Notes under the pieces: model-generated
Database searches by the model: none
What the model saw: only the letters and a program-made list of their open reading frames with translations
What the model was told of the DNA's origin: nothing
Position numbers and translations under genes: made by a program
From: Sphingomonadaceae bacterium
GTDB taxonomy: Bacteria; Pseudomonadota; Alphaproteobacteria; Sphingomonadales; Sphingomonadaceae
Direction of reading: 5' to 3'
DNA: 47,686 nt
Assembly (NCBI GenBank): GCA_020630295.1
Contig: JAHDBR010000015.1
Span: forward strand, 1-47,686
Shown here: piece after piece, positions 31 to 20,587 of the stretch
Layout: the number at the start of each line of letters is the position of its first letter
Position numbering within the stretch: the stretch's first letter is position 1

Positions 31-1107
31 TCACGGAAGCACGCCAATCTCAAGCCGCCACGGTTCTACGAACAGGGCGTTGTAGTAAGGGATATGAGCC
101 CCAGACGAGTTGGCGTACTCTAGCCAACCAAACAAGATGAGTAACATAAGACCACAGATGACCAGTCGCACTGGTCTCCTGAAACGTTCATTCACAATTT
201 GAGGAATTGCCGCCCAGACATACAGCGAAATAGGGAACCAGTAGAAGGAAATCCGTCCCGCAGCTGCCGATGCAAATGGCACCAAGGCCAACGTAAAGAT
301 AGCCGCGAAGGCAATGTTGCGAAGCAATTCGGTCGGGAACAGGATTTTGCGATATTTTGGCAGTAAGAAATACAGAGACGCTGGCACTGCGTTCATCGCT
401 ACATGAATAAATGCGCCGCTAGACTGCACAGACTCGTCCTGTCCTCGTCCGTAAGCCTCATCGTAGTAGCTGGCGAAGCCACTTTGCTGCAACACGTAGA
501 AAGCGCCTAAGCCAAAAACCACAATCCCTGCGAATTTTACAAATTTCGGAATCTTGAGATCGACTGCCACGAAAACCAAGAAAATTATCGCGCTGGCGTG
601 AAACAGGCCGCAAAACAGTATGCCGAGCGTCCTACCGACAATCCCGAAACGGTACCAATTCGCAACAAGAAGCATCAATAATCCGGCAGCCAAGGCTTGG
701 CGGTTTGCGCTCATAGATACAACGACGACAAACATCGGTATTGCTGCCATGATCGCCAGCCATGGCTCGGGCGTTCTCCTCGCATAAGCAAATATGCCGA
801 GCGACCCAAGAAAGGCTGCGATCAAATTGGTGACGTATATACCACCACCACTGGCCGCCCCGATATTTAGCAACGTGGCGTAGCCCGGCTCTGCAACGCT
901 GAATGCTCGACCGAGCGTTGCAGCGTGTTCTGCTGCATAGATCATGCGCAGATAGTTATTCCAATCCATGCCGACATGATGTCGCAGACCGACAAATAGA
1001 ACCATGACCACAAACATAGCGACCCATATGAGCATGGATGGTCTATGCGGACGGTCCAGCGTGGCCGCTGCGGCAAAAGCGCCGCCGAATAACAGAAATG
1101 GCCACAT
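31..1107 (-). CDS. EpsG/Wzy-like polysaccharide polymerase, multi-pass membrane protein
   Basis: ORF 31..1248 (-); start trimmed to ATG at 1107 (MWPFLLFGGAF...). Many hydrophobic segments and a GLRHHVGMDWNNYLRMI motif typical of EpsG-type polymerases. Confidence 0.75.
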   Translation of the reverse strand: MWPFLLFGGAFAAAATLDRPHRPSMLIWVAMFVVMVLFVGLRHHVGMDWNNYLRMIYAAEHAATLGRAFSVAEPGYATLLNIGAASGGGIYVTNLIAAFLGSLGIFAYARRTPEPWLAIMAAIPMFVVVVSMSANRQALAAGLLMLLVANWYRFGIVGRTLGILFCGLFHASAIIFLVFVAVDLKIPKFVKFAGIVVFGLGAFYVLQQSGFASYYDEAYGRGQDESVQSSGAFIHVAMNAVPASLYFLLPKYRKILFPTELLRNIAFAAIFTLALVPFASAAAGRISFYWFPISLYVWAAIPQIVNERFRRPVRLVICGLMLLILFGWLEYANSSGAHIPYYNALFVEPWRLEIGVLP

Positions 1108-1247
1108 ACCCGAGGGTGCTCCGATGCGTTCTTGTGCAGCTGCGCCAGATGCCGTATCGGCTCCGCTCCAGCAAGGGTGAAGTAGTAAACTGGCTGAGTA
1201 AGGCGCGCAACCGCTGCCTTTCAGCCCGAACGGGGATGGGTCAGACA

Positions 1248-1979
1248 ATGAAATTGCGCCTGATTTTCGCGCTGTTGCTGGTTCCGTTCCCTAGCTTCTT
1301 CAAGGTCTGGATGTACCGGATCGGCTTCGGCTATAAAATCGGCAAGCAGGTCAAGATCGGTTTCAGCGCAATTATCGCCGATGAATGTTCGATCGGAGAC
1401 CGTTCGCGTATCGGCCACTTGAATGTCTTTTACCGCAACCAGAACCTGCGTATCGGTTCGGATGTAATCATCGGCTTTGCCAACCGGATTTTCGGCGGGA
1501 AACTGCTGGATATTGGTGATAAATGTCACATCCACCGCTTTAACGAGATTAATTCGATCCTTGACCCGTTGGTGCTGGGCGATTTCGACCCCACGCTTGA
1601 ACTGGGTGAAGGCAGTGTCATCACAGTCAATCACAAGATCGACTTTACCGATCGCGTGACTTTCGGCCCTTCGGTCGTGTTTGCCGGGCGCAATTCCAAC
1701 ATCTGGACGCATAACCGCCAAAAGACCGCGCCGGTTTCGATCGGGCGCAATTGCTATATCGGCTCCAACGTCCAGTTCGTGGCGGGATCCTCTATCGGCG
1801 AATATTGCGTGCTCGCGCTCGGCTCGATTGTGACCAAGAATATCGAAGGGTCGTGGAAGATAGTCGCCGGAATGCCCGCGCAAGTGAAGAAAGATCTGGA
1901 CGAGGATTCCAAGGTTCTGGTCACTTACCCCACACGTCCCGATCTGGAGGGTGCCGAAGGCGCTCTGCCGGTCGCCTGA
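1248..1979 (+). CDS. Hexapeptide-repeat (left-handed beta-helix) acyltransferase
   Basis: ATG at 1248 (MKLRLIFALLLVPFPSFFKVWMYRI...) with repeated hexapeptides (IGKQVKIG, SIGDRSRIG, IGRNCYIGSNVQFVAGSSIGEYCVLALGSIVTK). Confidence 0.85.
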   Translation: MKLRLIFALLLVPFPSFFKVWMYRIGFGYKIGKQVKIGFSAIIADECSIGDRSRIGHLNVFYRNQNLRIGSDVIIGFANRIFGGKLLDIGDKCHIHRFNEINSILDPLVLGDFDPTLELGEGSVITVNHKIDFTDRVTFGPSVVFAGRNSNIWTHNRQKTAPVSIGRNCYIGSNVQFVAGSSIGEYCVLALGSIVTKNIEGSWKIVAGMPAQVKKDLDEDSKVLVTYPTRPDLEGAEGALPVA

Positions 1980-1987
1980 GCCACACC

Positions 1988-3133
1988 ATGCGGTTGCTGT
2001 TCGCAATAAAGGGGTTGGTGATCGCCGGTGGCGGGGCGGAACGTGTCTTTGTTGAAGTGGTCAATGCCCTGTCCGCACGCGGACATGAAATCCACGTCGC
2101 GACTTTCGACCATCCTGACCAAGAACTGTTCTACGATGTCGCCCCCGACATCCGCATCCACTTGTTTGGCGCGGGCGAACCGGGCGTCTCAACTCCGCGC
2201 TCCAATATACCCAAGATCATGCGGCGCATCCGCAAGTTGGCGGCGGATATACAGCCTGATGCAGCAGCCGCGTTCATGCATTCGACCTATGTTCCGGTTG
2301 CCGCCGGCCTGATTGGAAGCGGCGTGCCAATGATTTTGAGCGAACATACGGCAGGCGCGCACTTTGCCGGGCGACCACTGGAAAAAGCACTTACCCGTCT
2401 GGTCCAGAAACTAAGCTTTGCCAAAACGGTCGTGTCGCCGATCATCAAAAGCGAACACGCGCCGGCGTTTCACCGAAACTTGATTGTCCTGCCAAACCCC
2501 GTCGACATGAATGCTTTTGCCCCGGCTCGTGAAATAGCGCCGGACAAGGTCATACTATGCGTTGGCGGCCTGCGGGTGGAGAAGGATCAGGAAAGTCTGA
2601 TTGCGGCGTTCGAACAGATCGCAGACCGCCATCCGGGCTGGAAATTGCGGCTTGTCGGAGACGGCACGACCCGCCCGCAGATAGAAGCGCAGATTGCCCG
2701 CTCTCCGGTTGCCGGACGCATACAGCTGCCCGGAGTGCTAAAAGACGTGCCAGCCGAATATGCCAAGGCAGCAATTGTCGCGATGCCATCACGCTATGAA
2801 GCGTTGCCGATGGTCGCCATCGAAGCCATGGCCAGCGGCAGACCGGTGATCGGGTTTTCCGATTGCGCAGGGGCTGCGGCGCTGATCCGCAACGATGTCA
2901 ACGGATTGCTGATTGATCCGGCAAATGGCCGCGTGACCGCGCTCGCGGAAGCGTTAGAGACATTGATTACGGACGAAGATTTACGCCGTTCGCTGTCTCG
3001 GCAGGCGCCGGATACGGTGCAAAGCTATTCTCTGGACGCAGTGGTAGACCGCTGGGAAACATTGCTACAGGCTGCCGCTTCGAACAATAGAAACGCTGTA
3101 CAGCAAATGGCAGACGAAACAGGATCCGTTTGA
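1988..3133 (+). CDS. Glycosyltransferase family 4 protein
   Basis: ATG at 1988 (MRLLFAIKGLVIAGGGAERVFVEV...). GT4 signatures GGAERV, VLPNPVD, PSRYEALPMVAIEAMASGRPVIGF. Confidence 0.9.
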   Translation: MRLLFAIKGLVIAGGGAERVFVEVVNALSARGHEIHVATFDHPDQELFYDVAPDIRIHLFGAGEPGVSTPRSNIPKIMRRIRKLAADIQPDAAAAFMHSTYVPVAAGLIGSGVPMILSEHTAGAHFAGRPLEKALTRLVQKLSFAKTVVSPIIKSEHAPAFHRNLIVLPNPVDMNAFAPAREIAPDKVILCVGGLRVEKDQESLIAAFEQIADRHPGWKLRLVGDGTTRPQIEAQIARSPVAGRIQLPGVLKDVPAEYAKAAIVAMPSRYEALPMVAIEAMASGRPVIGFSDCAGAAALIRNDVNGLLIDPANGRVTALAEALETLITDEDLRRSLSRQAPDTVQSYSLDAVVDRWETLLQAAASNNRNAVQQMADETGSV

Positions 3134-3134
3134 A

Positions 3135-5054
3135 ATGAAGCCGCCGCATACCGCCATTCAATATCGCCCGGAGGTTGACGGACTGCGCGCCATCGCTGTG
3201 CTGCCAGTGCTGTTTTTCCATGCCGGACTGGAAATTTTCAGCGGCGGCTATGTCGGGGTCGACATCTTCTTCGTGATTTCGGGCTATCTGATCACTTCCA
3301 TCCTGTTGCGCGACCTCGAGAAAGACCGATTCTCGTTACTCACCTTCTATGACCGCCGGATCCGCCGGATATTCCCGGCCTTGATTGTGGTCATATTGGT
3401 AACGCTGGCACTGGCATGGGCGCTGATGCTGCCCAAGGATTTGGTCGATACCGGGCAAAGCGCATTTGCCGCCTCTGTTTTCGCATCCAACATATTATTC
3501 TGGTTCAAGACCGGGTATTTTGCCGGTCCGGCGGAAAGCAAGGCGCTGCTCCACACATGGTCGCTGGCTGTGGAAGAGCAATTTTATGTGTTCTTCCCGC
3601 TGGTTCTGTGGGCCGTATACAGGTTTTGCCGCGCCTATCTGATGCACATTCTGGTGATGCTTGGCATCGCGTCATTCGCTTTCTGCATGGCAGCGATGCA
3701 ATATGACGAAAGTTTCGCTTTCTATATGTTCCCCACTCGTGCGTGGGAACTGATCATCGGTTGCCTGCTTGCGATCGCTCCGGCGCGCAGGCCCTTGGCC
3801 GACCTGTTTACCTTCATCGGACTGGTGCTGATCGGATTTTCGATATTTGCATATGACGGAGACACTGTGTTTCCGGGATTGGCCGCCATTCCGCCGGTGC
3901 TCGGCACAGCACTCGTGATCCATTTCGCACCCGACGCCCGATTGAAGCACCTGCTGTCGTGGAAACCGCTGGTTTGGACGGGGCTGCTCTCATATTCGCT
4001 TTATCTGTGGCACTGGCCGGTCATCGTGTTCCTCAGCTACTGGACAATTCGCCCATTAAACGGAGCGGAAATTGCGCTGGCAATCGTGCTCTCATTCGTG
4101 CTTGCCGGTTTGACATGGCGCTTTATCGAACAGCCGTTCCGGCATTTGCGTGATATCAAAGCTGCCAAAATCGTCATTGGCGGGCTTGCGGCATCTGCCA
4201 TTCCTGCGCTGGTCGGGCTGGTATTTGTATACGGATCAGGAATGCCAAACCGCGTTCCTGCAGAAGCGCAAATAGCGGCCAAGGCACGGCTTTACTATCC
4301 GACCAAAATTGACAGTTGTACCAAAATGGACGGCCTAACCGCTGCATGGATGTGCCGTGTGGGTAATCCCGATGCAGAGCTGAGCTTTGCGCTGCTGGGC
4401 GATTCCCACGCCGGTTCATGGCGCGCAGGTGTTGATGCGTCGGCCAATAGAAACGGTACAGCGGGTCTTCTTTTTACAGCCAATGGCTGTCCACCGGTGA
4501 CCGGGGCCAAATTGCGCAATTCGACCAATGATTGCGATGCATATGAACGGCAGGCCATGGCAGCTATTCGCGAGGCCGGTCTGACAAAGATCATTCTTGC
4601 CGCGCGCTGGCCGATTTATGAAGAGCCGGGCAAATTACAGGATGGCAATCCGGCCAATTGGCTCAAGTTGATTGAAAGTTCCACCAATGCGCTGGGGCAG
4701 GAATTCGATGTCCATTTCACCCTTCCGGTACCGGGCAGCAAATATAACGTGCCGAACGCCGCAGCGCGCAAGTTGATGTTCTCCAGCGATGTAGAATTGT
4801 CTCTCAGCCGCGAGGAGGTCGATGCCCGCGATGCAAATATCAGGGCACTGTCAGACCGTCTCGCCGCTGCGGGGGCTGTGTCGGTTCTCGATCCGGTCGA
4901 ATTGCTGTGTAATGACCGCATTTGCCCGGCCGTCATCGACAATGTGCCGCAATATACGGACGAGACTCACTTGGTAGAAGACGCGTCTATTCGAGCAGGC
5001 GTTATTTTTGACCAAGCAACTACAGCCGCCGAAGAAAGTGCAGCCGTCCAATGA
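3135..5054 (+). CDS. Acyltransferase 3 family (OafA/YrhL-like) with C-terminal SGNH domain
   Basis: YRPEVDGLRAIAVLPVLFFHAG, GGYVGVDIFFVISGYLITSILL; C-terminal ALLGDSHAGSW SGNH block. Confidence 0.93.
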   Translation: MKPPHTAIQYRPEVDGLRAIAVLPVLFFHAGLEIFSGGYVGVDIFFVISGYLITSILLRDLEKDRFSLLTFYDRRIRRIFPALIVVILVTLALAWALMLPKDLVDTGQSAFAASVFASNILFWFKTGYFAGPAESKALLHTWSLAVEEQFYVFFPLVLWAVYRFCRAYLMHILVMLGIASFAFCMAAMQYDESFAFYMFPTRAWELIIGCLLAIAPARRPLADLFTFIGLVLIGFSIFAYDGDTVFPGLAAIPPVLGTALVIHFAPDARLKHLLSWKPLVWTGLLSYSLYLWHWPVIVFLSYWTIRPLNGAEIALAIVLSFVLAGLTWRFIEQPFRHLRDIKAAKIVIGGLAASAIPALVGLVFVYGSGMPNRVPAEAQIAAKARLYYPTKIDSCTKMDGLTAAWMCRVGNPDAELSFALLGDSHAGSWRAGVDASANRNGTAGLLFTANGCPPVTGAKLRNSTNDCDAYERQAMAAIREAGLTKIILAARWPIYEEPGKLQDGNPANWLKLIESSTNALGQEFDVHFTLPVPGSKYNVPNAAARKLMFSSDVELSLSREEVDARDANIRALSDRLAAAGAVSVLDPVELLCNDRICPAVIDNVPQYTDETHLVEDASIRAGVIFDQATTAAEESAAVQ

Positions 5055-6385
5055 GCAAAAAAACGGCAGCAGGCCGGTTTTGGTACTGGTTATGGCGATT
5101 GCTAATTATTGGCATGGCTGCGTTTGTTCTGCTGACGCTTTGGTTTGTGACGGGACCAGCCAGCCGCACGAACCATGCGGATAGCACAGGCGTGCCGGAC
5201 GGGGCGATACCGTACCTGTCGGCGAAAGAAGTGAGCGATCTTCCCATGAGCTGCGCTTATGTCGCGCAAGACGCACCTCTGGAACCCGGCGGCAGGCGGC
5301 CACATCGCAATCATACCTATCTAGCGAAACATGGCGGAAAATACTTCGTCATGTTCAGCTTCTGGTACGGTGCGGAGGGCCAGCCCGATCAGGAGATATG
5401 GTTCGCCACCTCGGAAGACGCAGTTGCATGGTCAAAACCCGAACTGCTGGCCAAGCCGGCTCCGACGCACGGCCTCGTGGCGCGTGGTTTCGTCCAGCGC
5501 GATGGCAAGCTTTACGCACAATATGCAACGCATACCGGAGACGGCGTATTTAGGAACAACCAGCCGGTGCTGGAGAAGAACATTGCGCTGCTGGAGTCGG
5601 TTTTTGACGATGCCACCGGAACATGGTCGCAAGACCGGACAGTCATTGACAAGCTGATCAATAACTACCCCGCCCGCGATTTTGGCGGGGGCACTGTCAT
5701 GGCCATGCGTGATCAGGATCGCGATACGTTTTTGGCTATCAGCGAAGATGGCGGCATGAGTTGGGATGTCAGCGGGAAAATGCCGGTTCCGCCCGGGCCG
5801 GATCCGGGCGAACCCGGACTCTATTTGCCTGACGAGCCGGTTACTTTTGCCTATGCGAACGGCGAGGCGCTTGTCGTGCTGCGTAACAACAACACATTTG
5901 ACGGGCGCCTGTGGGCGGCCAAATATGCCAGTGATGCATGGGGCGCACCCTATCCGCTCAATTTCCCGTCAGCCGCTAGCAAGTTCTATCCGATCACGTT
6001 GAAGGGCGGACAACAGGCCGTGATCGGAAATTTTAATCCCGATGTGCAGCGCGCATTGGTGCATATTGCCATTAGCGATGACGGCAATGATTATGACCGC
6101 CTCTACCGGTTCGCGCTGGAGGGGCAGTATGGCAATTTCCGCTGGCGGTCACCGCAATATCCGCACGCCTTGATTGACGGCGATACATTGGTGCTGGGTA
6201 TGTCATATGACAAACGGGCAATCTCGGTGTGCAAGGGACCCGCATCGGCAGAAGCGATAGAGGAGGCAAGCGGCTTCTCGCTCGCACCGCGGCTTGCGGT
6301 CGGTATGTGCAACAAGAATTACCCGTCATTCTTCCGGCGTATTCTCGGCTATGCCGGCTGCGTCGAACATTTTGTGTGGGGCTGA
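5051..6385 (+). CDS. Membrane-anchored Asp-box/BNR (sialidase-like beta-propeller) protein, function unknown
   Basis: N-terminal single TM (FWYWLWRLLIIGMAAFVLLTLWFV); Asp-box S-E-D-G-G-M-S-W (ISEDGGMSWDVSG) and degenerate copies (ATSEDAVAWSKP, ISDDGNDYD). ATGA overlap with the upstream gene. Confidence 0.6.
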   Translation: MSKKTAAGRFWYWLWRLLIIGMAAFVLLTLWFVTGPASRTNHADSTGVPDGAIPYLSAKEVSDLPMSCAYVAQDAPLEPGGRRPHRNHTYLAKHGGKYFVMFSFWYGAEGQPDQEIWFATSEDAVAWSKPELLAKPAPTHGLVARGFVQRDGKLYAQYATHTGDGVFRNNQPVLEKNIALLESVFDDATGTWSQDRTVIDKLINNYPARDFGGGTVMAMRDQDRDTFLAISEDGGMSWDVSGKMPVPPGPDPGEPGLYLPDEPVTFAYANGEALVVLRNNNTFDGRLWAAKYASDAWGAPYPLNFPSAASKFYPITLKGGQQAVIGNFNPDVQRALVHIAISDDGNDYDRLYRFALEGQYGNFRWRSPQYPHALIDGDTLVLGMSYDKRAISVCKGPASAEAIEEASGFSLAPRLAVGMCNKNYPSFFRRILGYAGCVEHFVWG

Positions 6386-6391
6386 CTGGCA

Positions 6392-8377
6392 ATGTGCGGA
6401 TTAGCCGGTCTTTTTGGCGCAGCGGATCGTCTTGGCGGCGGGTCTTATGATGACCTGGCCAAGCGAATGTCCGATGCGATCACCCATCGCGGGCCCGATG
6501 CGGAAGGCATCTGGACAGATGCAGAGGCGCAGATTGGGCTGAGCCACAGGCGGCTGTCGATCCTCGACTTATCGCCAGCAGGTGCGCAGCCGATGCAGTC
6601 GCAAGACGGACGCTTGGTCATCGCTTTCAATGGCGAGATATATAATTTCGCGGATTTACGTGCCGCGCTGGAGCAAAGGCATGGCGCAATCGCATGGCGC
6701 GGCCATTCTGACACAGAAGTGCTCGTCGAATGCTTCGCGCGTGACGGAATTCAGCGAACACTTGACCGGATAGACGGGATGTTCGGCATCGCCGTGTTTG
6801 ACCGCAAGACGCACGAACTGACGCTGATCCGTGACGCATTTGGAGAAAAACCGCTCTATTACGGATTGTGGCAGGGCGCCGTGCTGTTCGGCTCAGAAAT
6901 GCGCTGCTTGGAGGCAATTCCCGGTTTTCAAGCGCCTATGGACCTGAAAGCGCTTGGTGATTTCTTCAAATATTCCTACATCCCTGGCGATGCCACTATC
7001 TGGCAGAATGTCTCTAAATTGCCGCCAGCACACCTGCTAACCATCAGTCCAGATGATGTGCATGCGGGCAAGCTACCCGAACCGGCCGCGTGGTGGGACA
7101 TGGAGGGGGACGCACTTTCTGCCCGCAGCGGCGGTTTCGACGGCGACATGCAAGCCGCCATCGATCAGGCTGAATCATTGCTTCGTGCCGGCACTGCGCG
7201 GCGTATGATTTCCGATGTTCCGCTGGGTGCATTCTTGTCCGGCGGTATTGATTCCTCGCTCACCGTCGCGATGATGCAGGCGGTATCGGAAACGCCGGTC
7301 CGTACTTTTTCGATAGGCATGGCGGAAGACGGGTTCGACGAATCCCCTGCTGCGGCGGCCGTCGCGCGGCATCTGGGTACCGATCACACCGAGCTGGTAC
7401 TGACCCCGCAACAAGTTCAGGATGCGATCCCGCAAATCGCCGGAGTGCACGACGAGCCATTTGCCGATTCCAGCCAAGTTCCCACTTTTCTGGTTTCACA
7501 AATGGCGCGGCGCGATGTCACAGTAGCGCTGTCCGGGGATGGCGGAGACGAGATCTTCGGCGGATATAACCGGTATTTCCAAGGCCCGCGTGTGTGGAGC
7601 CGCGCAGCACGCCTGCCTGCTCCGCTACGCCGGGTAGCCGGTGGTATTTTGGGAGGCCTTCCAGGCGGGCTGGTCGACGGATTGGTGAAATCCGCTGGTT
7701 CACTTGCTCCTGCGGAACTGGCTGCAGGCCGCGCGGCAGAAAAGCTGCAAAAGCTCGCTCGGGTGATGGCGATGCCGAACGAGAGCGCATTCCATGACCG
7801 CCTTCTGGCGACATCAGACGACCCTGCTTCGATCCTTGGCTACGATGCGCGTTTGTCGTCGCTCCCGGATCGGCTCGACCCGCGTGCTGCAGAACTGTCT
7901 TTTGCCGAGCGTGCAATGCTGATCGATACCGAAAACTACATGGCGGATGATGTGCTGGTCAAAGTAGACCGCGCAGCAATGGCCGTCGCTCTGGAAACGC
8001 GCACGCCCTATCTTGAGCGCGACCTGTTCCGCTTTGCTTGGAGCCTTCCCCTTGAACTTCGCGCGGGTAGTGGAGAGGGCAAGACCATCCTGCGCCAACT
8101 GCTATACAGGCACGTGCCGCAAGAGCTGGTGGACCGGCCCAAGGCGGGCTTTGCGATACCAGTTGGCCGCTGGTTGAAAGGCGGATTGCGCGATTGGGCG
8201 GAAACTGAATTGTCACGGGCCGCGCTGGGCGACAGCGGGCTGCTCGACGTGGATGAAATCCGCACACGCTGGGCCGAACATCTTTCCGGAAAGCGCGATC
8301 ACGAAACGATGCTCTGGAACGTGTTGATGTTTCAGGCATGGCGCCGCAGCCAAACAAATGCAGGCAACGGAAAATGA
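6392..8377 (+). CDS. asnB: Asparagine synthase (glutamine-hydrolysing)-like amidotransferase
   Basis: MCGLAGLFG N-terminal Cys glutaminase; THRGPDAEG, FNGEIYNF, SGGIDSSL PP-loop, LSGDGGDEIFGGYNRY. Confidence 0.92.
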   Translation: MCGLAGLFGAADRLGGGSYDDLAKRMSDAITHRGPDAEGIWTDAEAQIGLSHRRLSILDLSPAGAQPMQSQDGRLVIAFNGEIYNFADLRAALEQRHGAIAWRGHSDTEVLVECFARDGIQRTLDRIDGMFGIAVFDRKTHELTLIRDAFGEKPLYYGLWQGAVLFGSEMRCLEAIPGFQAPMDLKALGDFFKYSYIPGDATIWQNVSKLPPAHLLTISPDDVHAGKLPEPAAWWDMEGDALSARSGGFDGDMQAAIDQAESLLRAGTARRMISDVPLGAFLSGGIDSSLTVAMMQAVSETPVRTFSIGMAEDGFDESPAAAAVARHLGTDHTELVLTPQQVQDAIPQIAGVHDEPFADSSQVPTFLVSQMARRDVTVALSGDGGDEIFGGYNRYFQGPRVWSRAARLPAPLRRVAGGILGGLPGGLVDGLVKSAGSLAPAELAAGRAAEKLQKLARVMAMPNESAFHDRLLATSDDPASILGYDARLSSLPDRLDPRAAELSFAERAMLIDTENYMADDVLVKVDRAAMAVALETRTPYLERDLFRFAWSLPLELRAGSGEGKTILRQLLYRHVPQELVDRPKAGFAIPVGRWLKGGLRDWAETELSRAALGDSGLLDVDEIRTRWAEHLSGKRDHETMLWNVLMFQAWRRSQTNAGNGK

Positions 8378-9729
8378 TCCGCAAACTGATTGAACAGGCC
8401 GTCTCCGTCGCTGGCTTGCGTGTGATCGGTACCGGGCTTTCGGTCGCGGTTTCAATTGTGATTGCGCGGCTCTACGGCGCAGATGCGCTAGGCATTTATG
8501 CCTATTGCGTCGCGCTTATGGCGCTGGCTGCGGTGCCCGTTTCCAACGGTTGGGCCACTTTGCTTTTGCGCAAAGTTGCGAGCGATAAAGCGATTTCTGC
8601 CGACGCCCGCGCTATGATCAAAACAGGTCAGTTCGGAGCAATTTTGCTGGTTGCGCTTGCGGCAACGATTGCGCTCGCCGCGATCACCTTCTCGCAAAGC
8701 GCCATTGCGCGGGCCATACAACCTGTTGCCTTCACCATTATCGGATTGCTGGCAATCGTATCGCTCAGCGACCAGATTTCAGCGCTGCGCATGGCGACAA
8801 TCCGCGGAATGGACCGGCCCGCGCTCGCGCAAATACCGGAAACACTGATCCGGCCCATGGTCCTCATTGGTGGAATAGCAGCGGGGTGGTTCTTTTATCG
8901 CGCAACCGAACAAACCGACCGGCTGACATTATTATTCAGCGCCTTGGCTGCCGGGGCTGTTATCGCGGCACTGGCTGGCCAAATCATACTGACGCGCATC
9001 GCATCAAAGCAGCAATCCGCCTCAGAACCAGTTAGCGAGACCCGGACAGGGAGCCGGAAAGAGTGGATCGCCAGCGCGGGGGCGCTCGCCGGAAGCGCGG
9101 GGCTGGTGCAGTTGAACGGGTATATCGACCTGCTCTTACTGGGCGCATTTGTTCCAGCTGAAGAGATCGGCCTTTACCGCGCTGCGCTGCAAATCGCGAT
9201 GCTCGCCAGCTTCGGCTATATCGCTTTGAACATGCTCGCGGGGCAGCGCTTTGCCCGGCTTCGCAAAACGGGCGACCGCGAGGGTCTTGCAAAAACAGCT
9301 ACCTATCTGGCCCGTTTGGCGCTGCTCTGCGCGGTCCCTATTCCGATTATTCTGACCGCGGCGGGAACGCTTGTCTTTAGCCTGCTATTCGGAACCGATT
9401 TTGCCGCTGCCGCCACGCCGGCGCTGATTATCGCCTGCGGCTTCGCGTTCAGCGCCTCGATCGGGATGGCGCGGACATTGCTGGTAATGCACCAGAAGGA
9501 ATTTCTGGTTATGCGCACCACGCTGGCGGCTCTGTTGGCGAACATTGTCCTGTGCCTAATACTCGTCCCTCAGCTGGGCATCACGGGCGCGGCCATCGGC
9601 AATTTCGGAGCGATGGTGCTGTGGAATCTTTTGCTGTGGTTCTTGGCAAGGAAGCAAACCGGCCTGGATACAAGTGTTATTGGTATGGGCACGATTAGCC
9701 CGTCCGGCGCATCGCAGGAAATGTCATGA
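8374..9729 (+). CDS. Wzx-like flippase / oligosaccharide translocase (MATE/MOP superfamily)
   Basis: Start ATG 8374 overlaps the asnB stop (ATGA). Multi-pass hydrophobic protein with IARLYGADALGIYAYCVALMALAAVPVSNG typical of the Polysacc_synt family. Confidence 0.88.
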   Translation: MIRKLIEQAVSVAGLRVIGTGLSVAVSIVIARLYGADALGIYAYCVALMALAAVPVSNGWATLLLRKVASDKAISADARAMIKTGQFGAILLVALAATIALAAITFSQSAIARAIQPVAFTIIGLLAIVSLSDQISALRMATIRGMDRPALAQIPETLIRPMVLIGGIAAGWFFYRATEQTDRLTLLFSALAAGAVIAALAGQIILTRIASKQQSASEPVSETRTGSRKEWIASAGALAGSAGLVQLNGYIDLLLLGAFVPAEEIGLYRAALQIAMLASFGYIALNMLAGQRFARLRKTGDREGLAKTATYLARLALLCAVPIPIILTAAGTLVFSLLFGTDFAAAATPALIIACGFAFSASIGMARTLLVMHQKEFLVMRTTLAALLANIVLCLILVPQLGITGAAIGNFGAMVLWNLLLWFLARKQTGLDTSVIGMGTISPSGASQEMS

Positions 9730-10478
9730 GCAAACCCGCCCGCCAAACCCTGTATTTGCATATTGGAACGCACAAAACAGGCTCATCTTCCCTGCAATAT
9801 TGGTTGGGCCAAAACCGTATTACGCTTGGCAAAGCTGGCTTGGCATTCTTCACCGGCCGGTTTGAGGCAGATAATCACGTCGAATTATTTGCCGATCCGA
9901 TGCGCTCTGAACGCGAGGCATTTTCCAAAGACAAATATGCACTCAACGGAACAAAAGACAGCCTGAAGCGCACAGAAGGACTTTTCGCGAAGTTTAAAAA
10001 GCTAAACAGGGAATCAACCCTCATCGCTTCGACGGAAGGGCTTTCATTGCTTCGTTATGATGACGAGATCGAACGGCTGAAGGCAATTCTCGGTTCGGAA
10101 AATTTGACAGTCAAAATCATCTTGGTTGTTCGCGACAAAGCCGACTTTCTGGAATCTTTCCGTAAGCAAATTCTCAAGCATCCCGAGCGCGAATTGTCGG
10201 CTGATCCGTCAAGCATCAACTATGTCGAGCCTGATAGCTGGTTGGCGAATTACGAAGAGATCAAAGCTGTATGGTCGCGCCATTTCGGTGCGGATGCAAT
10301 GACGGTGATAGACTATGATGCCGAAATGGCGCGGGACGGCGATGTTTTACCGGCGGTACTGCGCGCGATGGAGGTTCCGGCTGCAATGCTACCTGCGCCG
10401 GGAAGCGTGCGCGTGAACGTGGATAGCTGGAAGAGCGCCCTGCGGCGTATGTTGCGCAAGCTGGGGCTTAATTTCTAG
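9726..10478 (+). CDS. Sulfotransferase-like P-loop protein
   Basis: N-terminal LYLHIGTHKTGSSSLQYWL (PAPS 5'-phosphosulfate loop-like) and VKIILVVRDKADFLESFRKQ (3'-phosphate loop-like). ATGA overlap with the flippase. Confidence 0.7.
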   Translation: MSKPARQTLYLHIGTHKTGSSSLQYWLGQNRITLGKAGLAFFTGRFEADNHVELFADPMRSEREAFSKDKYALNGTKDSLKRTEGLFAKFKKLNRESTLIASTEGLSLLRYDDEIERLKAILGSENLTVKIILVVRDKADFLESFRKQILKHPERELSADPSSINYVEPDSWLANYEEIKAVWSRHFGADAMTVIDYDAEMARDGDVLPAVLRAMEVPAAMLPAPGSVRVNVDSWKSALRRMLRKLGLNF

Positions 10479-11339: not shown

Positions 11340-11554
11340 TTCAAAACCCCGGCCCAAACTTCCAGAAATGGCGACGTAAATGCCAACCAATCACTCGGGG
11401 GCGTGCATTAGACTATCATGCATCAACAGCAAGCCCCAAGGCGTGCGTCACGACCGGCTCATCGAGAGGTAGCGGTTTTACCCGCAGCTTGGTTGCTATG
11501 CGTATGCAATGGTCTATCAGGGCGCGGAATTGCAAAAATGAGATCAGGTTACCC

Positions 11555-12526
11555 ATGTCCACCACATCACCTTCAGCCTCGCCCGCACAAATCGGTGCAG
11601 ACGTTATCACGACAGAAGCCGCTGCCCTGACGCAAATGGCGGACAGTCTAGGCGATGCTTTCAACACAGCGGCTGAATTGATGCGTGACGCAAAAGGGCG
11701 CGTCGTTATTTCCGGTATGGGGAAATCCGGGCATATTGGAAACAAGATTGCCGCAACTTTGGCTTCAACCGGCACACCATCATTCTTTGTCCATCCGAGC
11801 GAGGCAAGCCACGGCGATCTCGGCATGATCACCCGCGATGATGTTTGTATCGTCATTTCCAATTCGGGCGAGACAACCGAATTGCACGCCTTGCTGGCTT
11901 ATCTGACGCGTTTCTCGATCCCGATGATTGCCATGACGAAAAACGCGGACAGCACTCTGGCCCGGCAAAGCACAGTCGCGCTGCTGCTTCCTGACGCAGC
12001 CGAAGCTTGCAGCGTCGGTATGGCGCCGACCACCTCGACCACGTGCACGCTGGCCTTGGGCGATGCGCTGTCAGTGGCAGTGATGCGGATGAAGGGCTTT
12101 GCCAAGGAAGACTTTCACGTGTTTCACCCGGGCGGAAAGCTGGGCGCACAATTTGTCCGGGTCCGCGATGTCATGCATCAGGGCGGAGAGCTGCCACGCG
12201 TATCCAGCGGTGATCCGATGGGCGATGTGCTGATCGAAATGAGCGCCAAGGGATTTGGCGTCGCCGGAGTTGTTGCGGAAGATGACGCGCTGCAAGGCAT
12301 CATTACTGATGGCGATTTGCGGCGGAATCTGGACGGATTGATGGACCGGACCGCGGGCGAAACGGCCACAGCATCACCGCAGACGGCCGAACCGGATATG
12401 CTTCTGACCGAAGCTATGGCGATCATGAATGAACGCAATATCAGCGCGCTTCCCGTGCTTGACGATGCCGGACGGTTTGTTGGTCTGATCCACATCCACG
12501 ATTGTCTGCGTGCGGGCACAGCCTGA
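11555..12526 (+). CDS. kdsD: Arabinose-5-phosphate isomerase, KpsF/GutQ family (SIS + 2 CBS domains)
   Basis: ATG at 11555 (MSTTSPSASPAQIG...). RVVISGMGKSGHIGNKIAATLASTGTPSFFVHPSEASHGDLGM and CBS domains at the C-terminus. Confidence 0.93.
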   Translation: MSTTSPSASPAQIGADVITTEAAALTQMADSLGDAFNTAAELMRDAKGRVVISGMGKSGHIGNKIAATLASTGTPSFFVHPSEASHGDLGMITRDDVCIVISNSGETTELHALLAYLTRFSIPMIAMTKNADSTLARQSTVALLLPDAAEACSVGMAPTTSTTCTLALGDALSVAVMRMKGFAKEDFHVFHPGGKLGAQFVRVRDVMHQGGELPRVSSGDPMGDVLIEMSAKGFGVAGVVAEDDALQGIITDGDLRRNLDGLMDRTAGETATASPQTAEPDMLLTEAMAIMNERNISALPVLDDAGRFVGLIHIHDCLRAGTA

Positions 12527-12553: not shown

Positions 12554-13663
12554 ATGCATATCGTCCTGACGGTCAATGCAAGCTGGAATATCTGGAACTT
12601 CCGCAAGCCCTTGGTCGAGGCATTGCTGGCGGACGGACACCGCGTCACGATCCTCGCCCCGCATGACGAGACAGTAGCCAAACTGACCGCGATTGGCGCG
12701 GAGCACGCGCCGCTGGCGATGGATGTACGCGGTGTGGGTGTCCTCAATAATCTGGGCCTAGTCGGTCACTTCAAGCGGCACTTCGCAGAACTGAAGCCAG
12801 ACATTGTGCTGAGTTATACAATCAAGAACAACGTGTTCGGTGCAATCGCCGCTCGGCTGACCGGAACCCCGTTTTTGCCCAATGTGACAGGGTTGGGCAC
12901 GATCTTTCTGGGATCAAAAGCGATGTTCGTGGCAGGCAAGGCCTTGTACCGATTGGCTATGGGCAGACTGCCAATTGTCTTCGTGCAGAACGAGGATGAC
13001 CGCAATTTTCTGGTCGCCAACAAGCTGCTGCAACCCGCGCAATTGCATTTGCTGCCCGGTTCAGGAATCGATTTGCAGGAATTCCCCGCTTGCCAGTTGC
13101 CGGCCGGAGGGACCAATACAGTTTTTCTTATGATTTCGCGCCTGATCCGCGACAAAGGCGTTGGCGAATATCTCGAAGCTGCCCGAATAGTCCGAAGGCA
13201 GAACGCGAATTGCACATTCCAGTTACTGGGTCCTTTGGGTGCGGAAAACCGCACGGCTATCACTTCGGATGAACTGCAACCTTTTCTGGATGATGGCTCT
13301 GTCGAGTATCTGGGCGCGACCGAAGATGTCCGCCCCTATGTCACAAAATCGCATTGCGTGGTGCTGCCATCTTATCGGGAAGGCGCGCCGCGGTCTCTGA
13401 TAGAAGCAGCCGCGATGGGCCGCCCCGTAATTACAACTGATGTGCCCGGCTGCCGCGCAGTGGTGGACGCTGGCAAGTCAGGCTTGCTGTGCGAAGTACG
13501 CAGCGCCGAAAGCCTGGCCGCCGCGGTCACGCGCTTTGCCGCACTTCCCCATGCCGGTAAACAGGCAATGGGTGATGCCGGCCGCGCAAAGATGATGAGC
13601 GAATTCGATGTCAGCATCGTGATTGATCGCTACCGCAATGCAATCAGCAAACTTGTCGGCTGA
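12554..13663 (+). CDS. Glycosyltransferase family 4 protein
   Basis: MHIVLTVNASWNIWNFRKPLVEALLADGHRV; LPGSGIDLQEF; VLPSYREGAPRSLIEAAAMGRPVITTDVPGCR. Confidence 0.92.
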   Translation: MHIVLTVNASWNIWNFRKPLVEALLADGHRVTILAPHDETVAKLTAIGAEHAPLAMDVRGVGVLNNLGLVGHFKRHFAELKPDIVLSYTIKNNVFGAIAARLTGTPFLPNVTGLGTIFLGSKAMFVAGKALYRLAMGRLPIVFVQNEDDRNFLVANKLLQPAQLHLLPGSGIDLQEFPACQLPAGGTNTVFLMISRLIRDKGVGEYLEAARIVRRQNANCTFQLLGPLGAENRTAITSDELQPFLDDGSVEYLGATEDVRPYVTKSHCVVLPSYREGAPRSLIEAAAMGRPVITTDVPGCRAVVDAGKSGLLCEVRSAESLAAAVTRFAALPHAGKQAMGDAGRAKMMSEFDVSIVIDRYRNAISKLVG

Positions 13664-13734: not shown

Positions 13735-14541
13735 ATGTCCGGCGAAACTCTAATCGTCATCCCTGCCCGCTACGCGTCCCAGCGTTATCCCGGCAAGCCG
13801 CTGGCCGAATTACACGGCGCTTCGGGAACACCGAAAACCCTGATCGAACGCAGCTGGGAAGCAGCGCGGCGGGTTCCCTCGGCTGACCGCGTTATTGTTG
13901 CTTCGGACAGCGACGCAATTCTGGATGCCGCGCGGGCCTTCGGCGCGGAAGCGCAGTTTACCTCTGCCGATTGCCGGAACGGGACCGAACGCTGCGCAGA
14001 ACTGCTCGGTACATTAGACGCGGAACCGGAGATCGTGGTCAATTTACAGGGCGATGCGCCGCTGATCCCTGACTATTTCGTTGAGAATCTGATCTCGGCC
14101 ATGCGGGCTGACCCGTCAATCGAAGTTGCCACACCTGTCGTTCGCTGTACGCGCACCCTGTATGACAAGCTGGTCGCTGACGAAAAAGAGAACATTGTCG
14201 GCGGCACATTCGGCGCGATCTCGACCGCTGGCGACGCGCATTATTTCTCTAAACGTATCATTCCGCATTTCGACGCTGACAAGGCAGATGACGCCAATTT
14301 GCCGGTTCTGCTGCATATCGGACTATACGCCTACCGTCCTGCAGCCTTACGGAAATATTCCGAATCCGACCCGACCCCTCTCGAACAGCTTGAGGGATTG
14401 GAACAATTGCGGTTCCTTGATCTGGGCGTATCCATTCGTACAATCGAAGTGAAATCGCCGGCGTGGGAAATTTGGGAGCTGAATAATCCCAGCGATATTC
14501 CGCATATCGAACAGTCGCTGGCTGTCATGGGTCTGGATTAG
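13735..14541 (+). CDS. kdsB: 3-deoxy-manno-octulosonate cytidylyltransferase (CMP-Kdo synthetase)
   Basis: LIVIPARYASQRYPGKPLAEL, NLQGDAPLIP, HIGLYAYRPAALRKY, PTPLEQLEGLEQLRFLDLG. Confidence 0.96.
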   Translation: MSGETLIVIPARYASQRYPGKPLAELHGASGTPKTLIERSWEAARRVPSADRVIVASDSDAILDAARAFGAEAQFTSADCRNGTERCAELLGTLDAEPEIVVNLQGDAPLIPDYFVENLISAMRADPSIEVATPVVRCTRTLYDKLVADEKENIVGGTFGAISTAGDAHYFSKRIIPHFDADKADDANLPVLLHIGLYAYRPAALRKYSESDPTPLEQLEGLEQLRFLDLGVSIRTIEVKSPAWEIWELNNPSDIPHIEQSLAVMGLD

Positions 14542-14716: not shown

Positions 14717-15577
14717 ATGAAACTTTGCGGCAAAGATATCGGCCTGGACCAACCCTTCTTCCTGATTGCGGGGCCATGCGTCATCGAATCCGAAGATATG
14801 GCCTTGCGCACTTCCGAAGCGATCAAGAAAATCACGGACGAACTGGGTATTCATTTCATCTACAAAAGCTCGTTCGACAAAGCCAACCGTACATCAGGCA
14901 CCAGCTTCCGCGGGCCGGGTCTGGACGAAGGGCTGGAGATTCTGGCGAAGGTCAAGCGCGAGCTGGGTGTGCCGGTTCTCACCGATGTCCATGAAAAGGA
15001 ACAGGTTAAGCCGGTTTCCGAAGTTGTTGACGTGATGCAGACACCGGCATTTCTGGCGCGGCAAACTGATTTCATCACCACTGTTGCGGCCGCAGGCATT
15101 CCCGTGAATATCAAGAAGGCACAATTCATGGCGCCGGGCGATATGGTCAATGTCGTCGAGAAAGCCGTGACCGCTTCCAAAGATGCTGGCCACGACGGGG
15201 ACAATATCATGGTGTGCGAACGCGGCGCATCGTTTGGTTATCAAAACCTCGTCTCGGATATGCGCAGCCTCGCAATTATGCGCGAAACAGGCCGGCCGGT
15301 CGTGTTCGATGCGACCCACTCGGTCCAGCTTCCCGGCGGACAGGGCAAAAGCTCGGGCGGACAACGTGAATTCGTACCGGTATTGGCACGCGCAGCAACC
15401 GCTGTGGGTGTTTCCGGATTGTTCATGGAAACCCATCCGGACCCCGCCAATGCAATGTCTGACGGCCCGAACGCGGTTCCGCTCGACTACTTGGCGCGGC
15501 TGCTCTCCAGCCTTGTCGAATTGGATAAGGCTGTGAAAGCGAAGCCTTTTCTCGAGGACGAGCTCGCCAATTACTGA
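14717..15577 (+). CDS. kdsA: 3-deoxy-8-phosphooctulonate synthase
   Basis: [77 protein letters not shown]. Confidence 0.97.
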
Positions 15578-15692: not shown

Positions 15693-16994
15693 ATGCTGAT
15701 GCAACATACAGACGTTCAGGCGGTGCAGGATAGCCATCCGTTGACGCGGCAGGGTGTCCAGTTTGCCTGCTACATCCTGTTTGGCGTTATCGTCCCGCTG
15801 CTCATCTGGTTTGCTGCGCGTTCGCCGGCCCTGACATCGCCCATCATTCAAAGCACTGTTCCGGCAGTTTTGGCCGCCTGTATCTTCAGCTGGTACATTC
15901 TGGCCAAATTGCGCCTTTATGCCAAAGCCCGCCGACTGTCTTATGTGTTGCCTGTCAATTTTCTGACCTTTGCGATTGCATCGTCAGTGCTATTTGTCCT
16001 GCGTACACCCTATTCGACATCGCTGATCGCTTCGGCGTTTCTGGCGACCTTGACCACCAGCTACGTCCTGACGGCCCTGACACGGCTCGGCAGCAAGCCG
16101 CAATTCATAGTTCAGGGCGGGCGCGTATCGGAACTGCCGAAGCGCCAGAACCAACATACGGTCACTTCTGCTCCGGAGCTGGAGGCGCTAATCGATTCCG
16201 GCCAGATGCAGGGTTCGCTGGTAGGCGATCTGCATTTTGACCATGAGGATCAGTGGGAACGGCTTTTCGCCAAAGCTGCGCTGCACGGCATACCTGTGTA
16301 CCATTACCGCCAGATATTGGAGCTGGAGACCGGACAGGTTCGAATCGACCGATTGAGCGAGAATGTACTTGGCTCGCTGATCCCGAACCTGCCCTATATG
16401 GCGCTGAAACGGGCGGTCGATGTCGCCTCGGTTATCCTGCTTATTCCGGTCCTGATCCCGCTTATGGCCACTATTGCCATTTTGGTGCGGCTCGATTCAA
16501 AAGGACCCGTATTGTTCATTCAGGAACGGATGGGCTTTCGCGGCGAAATCTTTCGAATGGTCAAATTTCGGACCATGTCCGAACGCGCGGTCGATGACGA
16601 CACATTGGCGCAACGCGAAGATTCAATGACGAAAAATGATGATGCACGCATCACTCGGATCGGGCGTTTCCTTCGCAAAGTCCGGCTCGACGAATTGCCC
16701 CAAGCGTGGAACATTCTGAAAGGCGATATGAGCTGGATCGGCCCGCGGCCCGAAGCAATCAACCTGTCCGAATGGTACGAACAGGAAATTCCGTTCTATT
16801 CATATCGGCACATCGTCCGCCCCGGGCTGACCGGATGGGCACAAGTGAACCAGGGTCACGTGACAGATCTGGGCGATGTGAATGCGAAGCTCCGTTATGA
16901 TTTCTACTACGTCAAGAACATCTCCCACTGGCTGGATATGCTAATCGCACTGAAAACGATCCGTGTTATCCTCGGGGGATTTGGCGCGAAATAA
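15693..16994 (+). CDS. Polyprenyl-phosphate sugar-1-phosphate transferase (WcaJ/ExoY-type initiating transferase)
   Basis: C-terminal bacterial sugar transferase domain: LKRAVDVASVILLIPVLIPLM...FIQERMGFRGEIFRMVKFRTM...KVRLDELPQAWNILKGDMSWIGPRPE. Confidence 0.93.
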   Translation: MLMQHTDVQAVQDSHPLTRQGVQFACYILFGVIVPLLIWFAARSPALTSPIIQSTVPAVLAACIFSWYILAKLRLYAKARRLSYVLPVNFLTFAIASSVLFVLRTPYSTSLIASAFLATLTTSYVLTALTRLGSKPQFIVQGGRVSELPKRQNQHTVTSAPELEALIDSGQMQGSLVGDLHFDHEDQWERLFAKAALHGIPVYHYRQILELETGQVRIDRLSENVLGSLIPNLPYMALKRAVDVASVILLIPVLIPLMATIAILVRLDSKGPVLFIQERMGFRGEIFRMVKFRTMSERAVDDDTLAQREDSMTKNDDARITRIGRFLRKVRLDELPQAWNILKGDMSWIGPRPEAINLSEWYEQEIPFYSYRHIVRPGLTGWAQVNQGHVTDLGDVNAKLRYDFYYVKNISHWLDMLIALKTIRVILGGFGAK

Positions 16995-18042: not shown

Positions 18043-19344
18043 TTAGCTGGCGAGGCGCAGGCCCGGTTTCGCTGATTTCACTGCGACATCCGGCCAAATG
18101 CCGCGCGTGTCATAGACCAGTGCGTTCTCGCGTTCTTCGGCAGGTACGACTTTGAAAATGTCGTGATCGACCAGCACGATAAGAATGCCGCAATTTTCCA
18201 AAGCGTAGTCGACATCCACCAGCTCTGCGCCGGTTCCGTCGAATTCACGCGGTAGCTCTGCAGCATAGGGTTCGACAATCTTGACGCGTTCGCCAAATTC
18301 GCGCGCAATGCTTGCCGCGACATAACGCGCCGGACTTTCTCGGAAATCATCAATATTCGCTTTGAATGCAAGGCCCAGACACGCCACCGGCACGCCGGGA
18401 TTGTCGGCAACAAGCTTGCGGGCCTGCTCTACCACGTGGTGCATCTTGCCGTCATTTACTTCACGCCCCGTCCGGATCAGCGGAGACTGGTCGGGCGCGC
18501 CGTGCATGATGAAATAAGGATCAACCGCAATGCAATGGCCGCCTACTCCGGGGCCGGGTTGCAGGATGTTCACACGCGGGTGACGGTTCGCCAACTTGAT
18601 TACTTCCCAGACATCCAGACCCATATGGTCGGAAATCATCGAAAGTTCGTTGGCAAATGCGATATTCACATCGCGATAGGCATTTTCGACCAGCTTGGTC
18701 ATCTCTGCACTGCGTGCATCGGTGGTGACGCAAGTGCCGCGAACAAATTGCTTATAGAATGCCAGAGCCTTACGCGCACAACGCGGGGTAATGCCGCCGA
18801 TGGAGCGGTCATTATGGGTCAGCTCTTCAAGGATTTTGCCGGGAAGAACGCGCTCCGGGCAATAGGAAATCGCTACATCGGGAATGTCGGACGTTTTGCC
18901 CGGCATTTTCAGATCAGGGCGCAAACCGCTGATCAGATCACGCATCGCCTCAGTCGTGCCCACGGGAGATGTCGATTCAAGAATGATGCAATCGCCCTTT
19001 TTCAGAACGCCTGCAACTTCGGTCGCGGCTGACATCACGTAGGACGTGTCGGGCGTATGATGCCCGTCTTTTTCGAACGGTGTCGGGACGGCGATCACGA
19101 ATACGTCAGCCGGAACAATCTGCGTCGATGCTTTGAGCATACCGCGCTGCACTACGCCGCGGACAAGCCCGTCCAGATCAACTTCTTCAATGTGGATTTC
19201 ACCGCGATTGATTGTCTCGACAACATGGTCGGACACATCAATGCCGGTCACCGGGCAATTCGCCCGCGCAATAATCGCTGCCGTGGGAAGGCCGATATAT
19301 CCAAGGCCGATAACACAGACTTCTGGTTTGTTTTCGCCGCGCAT
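18043..19344 (-). CDS. wecC: UDP-N-acetyl-D-mannosamine dehydrogenase
   Basis: CVIGLGYIGLPTAAIIARANCPVTGIDVSDHVVETINRGEIHIEEVDL; KLVENAYRDVNIAFANEL; GPGVGGHCIAVDPYFI. Confidence 0.92.
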   Translation of the reverse strand: MRGENKPEVCVIGLGYIGLPTAAIIARANCPVTGIDVSDHVVETINRGEIHIEEVDLDGLVRGVVQRGMLKASTQIVPADVFVIAVPTPFEKDGHHTPDTSYVMSAATEVAGVLKKGDCIILESTSPVGTTEAMRDLISGLRPDLKMPGKTSDIPDVAISYCPERVLPGKILEELTHNDRSIGGITPRCARKALAFYKQFVRGTCVTTDARSAEMTKLVENAYRDVNIAFANELSMISDHMGLDVWEVIKLANRHPRVNILQPGPGVGGHCIAVDPYFIMHGAPDQSPLIRTGREVNDGKMHHVVEQARKLVADNPGVPVACLGLAFKANIDDFRESPARYVAASIAREFGERVKIVEPYAAELPREFDGTGAELVDVDYALENCGILIVLVDHDIFKVVPAEERENALVYDTRGIWPDVAVKSAKPGLRLAS

Positions 19345-19462
19345 GATTTTCCTGCTGCTTTAGAGTTCGCAAAAGGCTTAGCGGGAGAGGGTAAACATCC
19401 CGGTAACGCTGGCACTTTAGTTTTGGATAGTTCTTGCGGGACTTTACCGGTCTATCGGCGAA

Positions 19463-20587
19463 TCAGCCGCCAGCCAGCGCCTCGACAATGCGGGCAACCG
19501 ATTTTCCGTCCCCGAACGGATTGTGTGCTTTCGACATTGCCGAATAAGCAGCTTCATTATCAAGCAGATGGTTGCATTCGCGCACGATCACATCTGCATC
19601 TGTCCCGACCAGCTTGGCGGTGCCTGCCTCGACGCCTTCGGGGCGCTCGGTCGTTTCGCGCATCACCAGCACGGGTTTACCCAAAGCGGGCGCCTCTTCC
19701 TGAACACCGCCGCTATCAGTTAACATCAGCGTGCAGATATCCAGCAAACGGGCGAAATGTGGATAGTCCAGCGGCTCGATCAACGCGACATTCTCAAGCC
19801 CGTCCAATTCGGCATTCATGACTTTGCGAACATTCGGGTTGAGATGGACGGGGAAGATCATCGCCACATCATCGCGCGCTGCAATGCGCCGTATCGCTTC
19901 CGCGATCGCTTCCATCCCGCCGCCAAAGTTTTCGCGGCGGTGGCTGGTCACACCAATGATTCGTTTGCCAGTGAAACGCTGCTCCAGATCCGCCAGATCG
20001 CCTGCCAAATCGGGTTTTTTCGCGATTTCGCCGGTAATCCAGTGAAGCGCATCAATCACGGTATTGCCTGTGACGTGGATACTGGCCGGATCGATGGCTT
20101 CACGCCGCAGCGCGTTTGCCGCAGTTTCGGTTGGCGCAAAATGAAGCGCGGCAAAACTGCCCACAATCTTGCGATTTACCTCTTCAGGCCAGGGATGATG
20201 GATATTGCCGCTGCGCAAGCCGGCTTCGACGTGAGCCACAGGGATCTTGCGGTAATAGGCAGCAAGCGCGCCGGACATGGCCGTAGCGGTGTCGCCTTGG
20301 ACAATCACCCAATCAGGCTTTTCCTCGTCCAGAACCCTGCCAATGCCGGTCAGCAAATTCGCCGTCAGAGCATCCAGCGTTTGATCGGGCTGCATCAGGT
20401 CAAGATCATGATGCGGGACAATGCCTGCAATTTCGAGAACCTGATCCAGCATACCGCGATGTTGCCCGGACACACAGACCCGCGAATCGAAACGATCATC
20501 CGCATCCAGCGCATGGACCAGCGGAAAGAATTTGATAGCTTCGGGACGGGTCCCGAAAACGGAAAGGATCTTGATCGGCTTGCTCAT
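19463..20587 (-). CDS. wecB: UDP-N-acetylglucosamine 2-epimerase (non-hydrolysing)
   Basis: ILSVFGTRPEAIKFFPLVHAL, VHLNPNVRK, LTDSGGVQEEAPALGKPVLVMRETTERPEGVEAGTAKLVG. Confidence 0.96.
   Translation of the reverse strand: MSKPIKILSVFGTRPEAIKFFPLVHALDADDRFDSRVCVSGQHRGMLDQVLEIAGIVPHHDLDLMQPDQTLDALTANLLTGIGRVLDEEKPDWVIVQGDTATAMSGALAAYYRKIPVAHVEAGLRSGNIHHPWPEEVNRKIVGSFAALHFAPTETAANALRREAIDPASIHVTGNTVIDALHWITGEIAKKPDLAGDLADLEQRFTGKRIIGVTSHRRENFGGGMEAIAEAIRRIAARDDVAMIFPVHLNPNVRKVMNAELDGLENVALIEPLDYPHFARLLDICTLMLTDSGGVQEEAPALGKPVLVMRETTERPEGVEAGTAKLVGTDADVIVRECNHLLDNEAAYSAMSKAHNPFGDGKSVARIVEALAGG

Follow-up and report, generated by a model that had tools for sequence, protein, structure and literature searches.

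A membrane-anchored sialidase-fold protein in a Kdo-bearing Wzx/Wzy-type polysaccharide locus of a Sphingomonadaceae bacterium and its possible role in polymer editing

A 444-amino-acid protein with a sialidase-type propeller and an N-terminal membrane anchor is encoded at positions 5051–6385 (forward strand) of the window, the whole stretch of 47,686 nucleotides from contig JAHDBR010000015.1 that was analyzed, within a polysaccharide locus that also encodes Kdo synthesis. The best explanation, held tentatively and with slightly less than even confidence, is that this BNR protein is anchored in the inner membrane and acts in the periplasm as a GH33-like Kdo glycosidase or trans-glycosidase that would edit the polymer. 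Possible too, though a step less probable, is the broader proposal that the protein belongs to a new family of membrane-anchored enzymes, Kdo glycosidases or trans-Kdo-glycosidases, which would edit a Wzx/Wzy polysaccharide in LPS-free hosts where Kdo is found only in the polymer. To our knowledge, few Kdo-cleaving enzymes have been described and the documented ones (KdoH1/KdoH2) act on lipid A. If true, a Kdo-editing enzyme inside a Wzx/Wzy locus would add a new means of adjusting the chemistry of a polymer, LPS-free bacteria with a seemingly dispensable Kdo synthesis would offer a clean study system, and the protein might become a tool enzyme for Kdo glycans.

Gene, membrane anchor and propeller fold

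The open reading frame represents a real, conserved protein: it lies exactly at the positions given in the preliminary description, and its frame is uninterrupted in four homologues of 51–57% identity. Tight coupling to the upstream gene was confirmed, as the ATG of the BNR gene overlaps the TGA (ATGA, 5051–5054) of an OafA-type acyltransferase with an SGNH domain (3135–5054, forward strand), and the gene for an AsnB-like glutamine amidotransferase (6392–8377, forward strand) starts 6 nt past the BNR stop codon. Both neighbors are present as originally described but the acyltransferase is peculiar to this genome; in the homologues the upstream partner is a GT4 glycosyltransferase or a methyltransferase instead, and the close spacing of the BNR gene to its upstream partner and to AsnB is kept despite the change of partner.

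The proposed single N-terminal transmembrane segment was recovered by hydropathy (window maximum at residue 17, mean 2.34, no other hydrophobic segment) and by the AF2 model (helix at residues 4–34), placing a signal-anchor helix at approximately residues 12–35 (5084–5155, forward strand). The propeller domain is predicted to reside in the periplasm, with the protein tethered to the inner membrane, because the basic residues ahead of the helix and four cysteines that are invariant in an alignment of five orthologues fit this topology.

The AF2 model was built on four sequences and is of moderate confidence (mean pLDDT 66, pTM 0.69); it consists of the N-terminal helix followed by six blades, counted from the strand list. 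Based on the strand order and the sialidases matched by Foldseek, the six-bladed propeller domain covers approximately residues 67–399 (5249–6247, forward strand). The top Foldseek matches are nearly all sialidases and trans-sialidases, mostly of GH33 (E = 2.5e-11), a Kdnase is matched at 3.0e-08, and L-Rha-GlcA lyases on related propellers rank below the sialidases and the Kdnase. A non-propeller fold had been named as one outcome that would speak against the initial reading; model and fold search both returned a sialidase-type propeller. Matches in the PDB to acyl-CoA dehydrogenase were discarded as chance matches, and a viral fold search gave nothing beyond sialidase-like propellers and noise.

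On the sequence level, the protein matches PF13088 (BNR_2) at 1e-13, above the curated cut-off, and BNR_2 is matched by all four proteins of the homologue alignment (4/4, best 4.5e-18). The Asp-box signal is therefore beyond chance; the strict Asp-box that had been noted, SEDGGMSW (residues 231–238), is accompanied by two degenerate copies near residues 121 and 342, approximately 111 residues apart. A search of NCBIfam returned no name for the BNR protein.

Candidate active-site residues

Five residues that are invariant over the five orthologues were aligned to or, for Y370, near catalytic positions of GH33 (all coordinates on the forward strand). R86 (5306–5308) is the candidate Arg1 of the arginine triad, its RNH sequence being matched in alignment to the RIP motif in a sialidase of known structure. 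E262 (5834–5836), the candidate Glu partner of the nucleophile, and R278 (5882–5884), the candidate Arg2, align to the corresponding Glu and Arg of mouse NEU1 as well as to GH33 via an intermediate family, and the gap of 16 residues between them is the same as in a Sphingomonadales GH33 protein (L045). R334 (6050–6052), the candidate Arg3, and Y370 (6158–6160), the candidate Tyr nucleophile, were reached through the intermediate family, with the register of Y370 uncertain by two residues. The arginine triad (R86, R278, and R334) is thus matched to GH33 by alignment only. Invariant residues are enriched where the inner strands of the propeller begin (32 out of 54, compared with 89 out of 279, p = 1.5e-4). 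The lack of a conserved catalytic pocket would have spoken against the initial reading; the residues at these strand starts form a conserved polar set that includes the arginine triad, the Glu and a Tyr.

Two features of GH33 are not kept. The acid/base Asp of blade 1 is not in place, with the invariant E109 nearby and position 110 occupied by Gly in the protein of the window and by Asp in the orthologues. The Glu that clamps Arg1 is also missing, with Y386 or Leu at the site and an invariant K388 instead. Direct HHalign comparison of the family profile with two Sphingomonadales GH33 proteins gave no match, and the link to GH33 was made through the intermediate family (L020/L021), which aligns E262, R278, and R334, itself lacks Arg1, and leaves the Tyr register off by two. 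Since neither the acid/base Asp nor the Arg1-clamping Glu is kept, the BNR protein is here called GH33-like and not a member of GH33.

The polysaccharide locus, gene loss and the supply of Kdo

The BNR gene occupies a constant slot, before AsnB and Wzx, in one Wzx/Wzy-type locus of approximately 20 genes. The conserved order starts with a UDP-sugar dehydrogenase, a pyruvyltransferase-like protein, an unnamed protein, an EpsG/Wzy-like polymerase (31–1248, reverse strand in the window), a hexapeptide acyltransferase-like protein (1251–1979) and a GT4-family glycosyltransferase (GT4a, 1991–3133), the latter two and the named genes that follow, up to the initiating enzyme, being encoded on the forward strand. 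It continues with BNR, AsnB, a Wzx-like flippase (8377–9729), variable modifiers, the arabinose-5-phosphate isomerase KdsD/KpsF (11552–12526), a second GT4-family glycosyltransferase (GT4b, 12554–13663), the CMP-Kdo synthetase KdsB (13735–14541) and the Kdo-8-phosphate synthase KdsA (14717–15577, single copy in the genome), the three Kds proteins being named by NCBIfam. The initiating transferase, a polyprenyl glycosylphosphotransferase (15693–16994), an epimerase and the ManNAcA genes follow, the last being a UDP-ManNAc dehydrogenase and a WecB epimerase for UDP-ManNAcA supply (18043–20587, reverse strand). The variable slot after Wzx holds sulfotransferase-like or FkbM-methyltransferase-like genes that differ by genome, and in the window a weakly sulfotransferase-like protein (9726–10478). 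A type I phosphodiesterase-like protein was found only in two loci with a more divergent polymerase (L015:6628–8070 and L009:11698–13104; polymerase approximately 39.6% identical to that of the window), and the AsnB match in one genome (G003, L034:11495–13462) contains one TAA in the matched frame of the genome search. An AF2 model of the Pfam-less conserved family upstream of the polymerase (pLDDT 38) was too poor for a fold search.

This gene content bears on the substrate: instead of Kdo, the propeller might, as a glycosidase or lyase of the periplasm, attack a different acidic sugar in the polymer, such as ManNAcA, GlcA or GalA. Genes for UDP-ManNAcA synthesis, for a UDP-sugar dehydrogenase and for an epimerase are present in the locus, the BNR gene always adjoins an AsnB-like amidotransferase that could act on uronic acids, and L-Rha-GlcA lyases are among the fold matches. 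However, a full arginine triad, which marks 2-keto acids with an anomeric carboxylate as in sialidases, is present by alignment, and the lyases are outranked by sialidases and Kdnase, making this alternative unlikely.

The family survey of 401 genomes yielded three more that encode a full-length homologue, and another such homologue came from one MAG contig, which is short and shows BNR-AsnB-Wzx only; Pontixanthobacter sp. CEM42 and Parerythrobacter lutipelagi are two of the carriers. Wider surveys of the order and the class gave no additional full-length homologue, a one-sequence scan of genome contigs confirmed no close relative and a plasmid search found none; orthologues were seen only in a few Erythrobacteraceae-type genomes. 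One match (G262) was discarded as a repeat protein, and tandem BNR genes in another genome (G022) are unrelated to the locus. Three congeners carry the kds locus and lack the BNR gene, and in one of these (G002) approximately 25 codons of the BNR 3′ end are left just before AsnB (L010:9040–9330, reverse strand; TFLRRLFGYAGCVEHFVWS*), a scar of recombination or deletion. The BNR gene is accordingly an accessory part of the cluster that is lost or replaced as the polymer chemistry changes, and its absence from the three sister loci implies that the polymer can be made without the BNR protein.

Dispensability of this kind would suit a non-catalytic propeller that binds the polymer or serves as a scaffold for its assembly, modification or export. 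Many Asp-box propellers are not enzymes, and the protein departs from GH33 at the acid/base Asp and at the Glu that clamps Arg1. However, Arg, Glu and Tyr residues are invariant at the expected places and the inner-strand starts are conserved, so that a purely structural role is judged improbable, to about the same degree as action on another acidic residue.

The proposed co-occurrence with Kdo genes held, as every complete locus with a BNR gene carries kdsD-kdsB-kdsA. Kdo synthesis is sporadic in the family: a close KdsA was identified in 12 out of 37 family genomes searched, and in a survey of 61 relatives the three genomes with the BNR gene all belong to the 12 that have a close kdsA (3/3, chance probability 0.006, the association being inflated by shared descent). 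The Kdo-lipid A transferase WaaA was found in none of 19 family genomes (the genome of the window and 18 others) while control genomes were positive. According to the literature, Sphingomonadaceae and Erythrobacteraceae have no LPS and contain glycosphingolipids (PMC7956469). Based on these two observations, Kdo most likely serves only the surface polymer here. The Kdo-directed glycosidase that the preliminary description had considered conceivable agrees with the propeller, the conserved residue set, the co-occurrence with kds genes and the absence of WaaA, but not with the two GH33 features that are missing.

Known counterparts, proposed action and a candidate Kdo transferase

KdoH1 is reportedly, by the account of Zhao and Raetz from 2010, a sialidase-related protein with one N-terminal transmembrane segment that is located in the inner membrane. 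The BNR protein is alike by description in its single N-terminal transmembrane helix and sialidase-like domain. The KdoH1/KdoH2 Kdo hydrolase of Helicobacter and Francisella, for which Kdo is documented as the substrate (PMC3245313, PMC4688374), is by this analogy the nearest functional precedent. It differs in that KdoH1 trims Kdo2-lipid A, for which WaaA is absent here, and in that KdoH1 needs KdoH2; no KdoH2-like multi-TM partner was recognized among the locus open reading frames read by eye.

The GH33 sialidases and Kdnases share with the BNR protein the fold class, the Asp-boxes, the aligned Arg and Glu positions and a probable Tyr of uncertain register, but not the membrane anchor or the location in a biosynthetic locus. 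The closest relatives outside the family are BNR_2 proteins from Sphingomonadales and other Alphaproteobacteria (L020, L021, L073, and L074), which have the same pattern of Glu, Arg2, Arg3, Tyr and Lys but lack Arg1 and look secreted instead of anchored; no polysaccharide genes were recognized beside them in the listed open reading frames. Polymer-degrading enzymes are common in EPS operons, and AlgL, PelA and BcsZ are likewise degrading-type enzymes encoded inside a biosynthesis locus (PMC8829089), although these come from synthase-dependent systems and differ in fold, whereas the locus studied here is of the Wzx/Wzy type.

As a Kdo-directed enzyme, the BNR protein would act after Wzx, its sialidase-fold domain meeting the flipped Kdo-containing acidic repeat unit or the nascent polymer in the periplasm. 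The arginine triad would bind the carboxylate of the ulosonic acid, and Y370 and E262 might act as a Tyr/Glu pair that releases Kdo or moves it to another acceptor, by which the Kdo content of the finished polymer would be set or mis-assembled chains would be cleared. A dedicated trans-glycosidase that moves Kdo from one place in the polymer to another acceptor, such as a lipid anchor or a side chain, is the least probable alternative and rather remote. In its favor, trans-sialidases appear near the very top of the fold matches, and the membrane to which the protein is anchored is also the site of acceptor synthesis; but sialidases and trans-sialidases share residues and sequence cannot separate transfer from hydrolysis.

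A separate observation concerns a conserved family of approximately 470 amino acids without Pfam or PDB match (L015:4028–5446, L017:3413–4795 and, on another contig of the genome of the window, C53:1142–2401), which displays an invariant RPHPQI sequence that includes an HP motif as well as a PSTV motif. The beta-Kdo transferases carry an HP motif and could not be recognized as transferases from their sequences (PMC10148158), which makes this family a candidate for a new Kdo transferase. It is present in seven of the 61 relatives, all of which contain kdsA (7/7).
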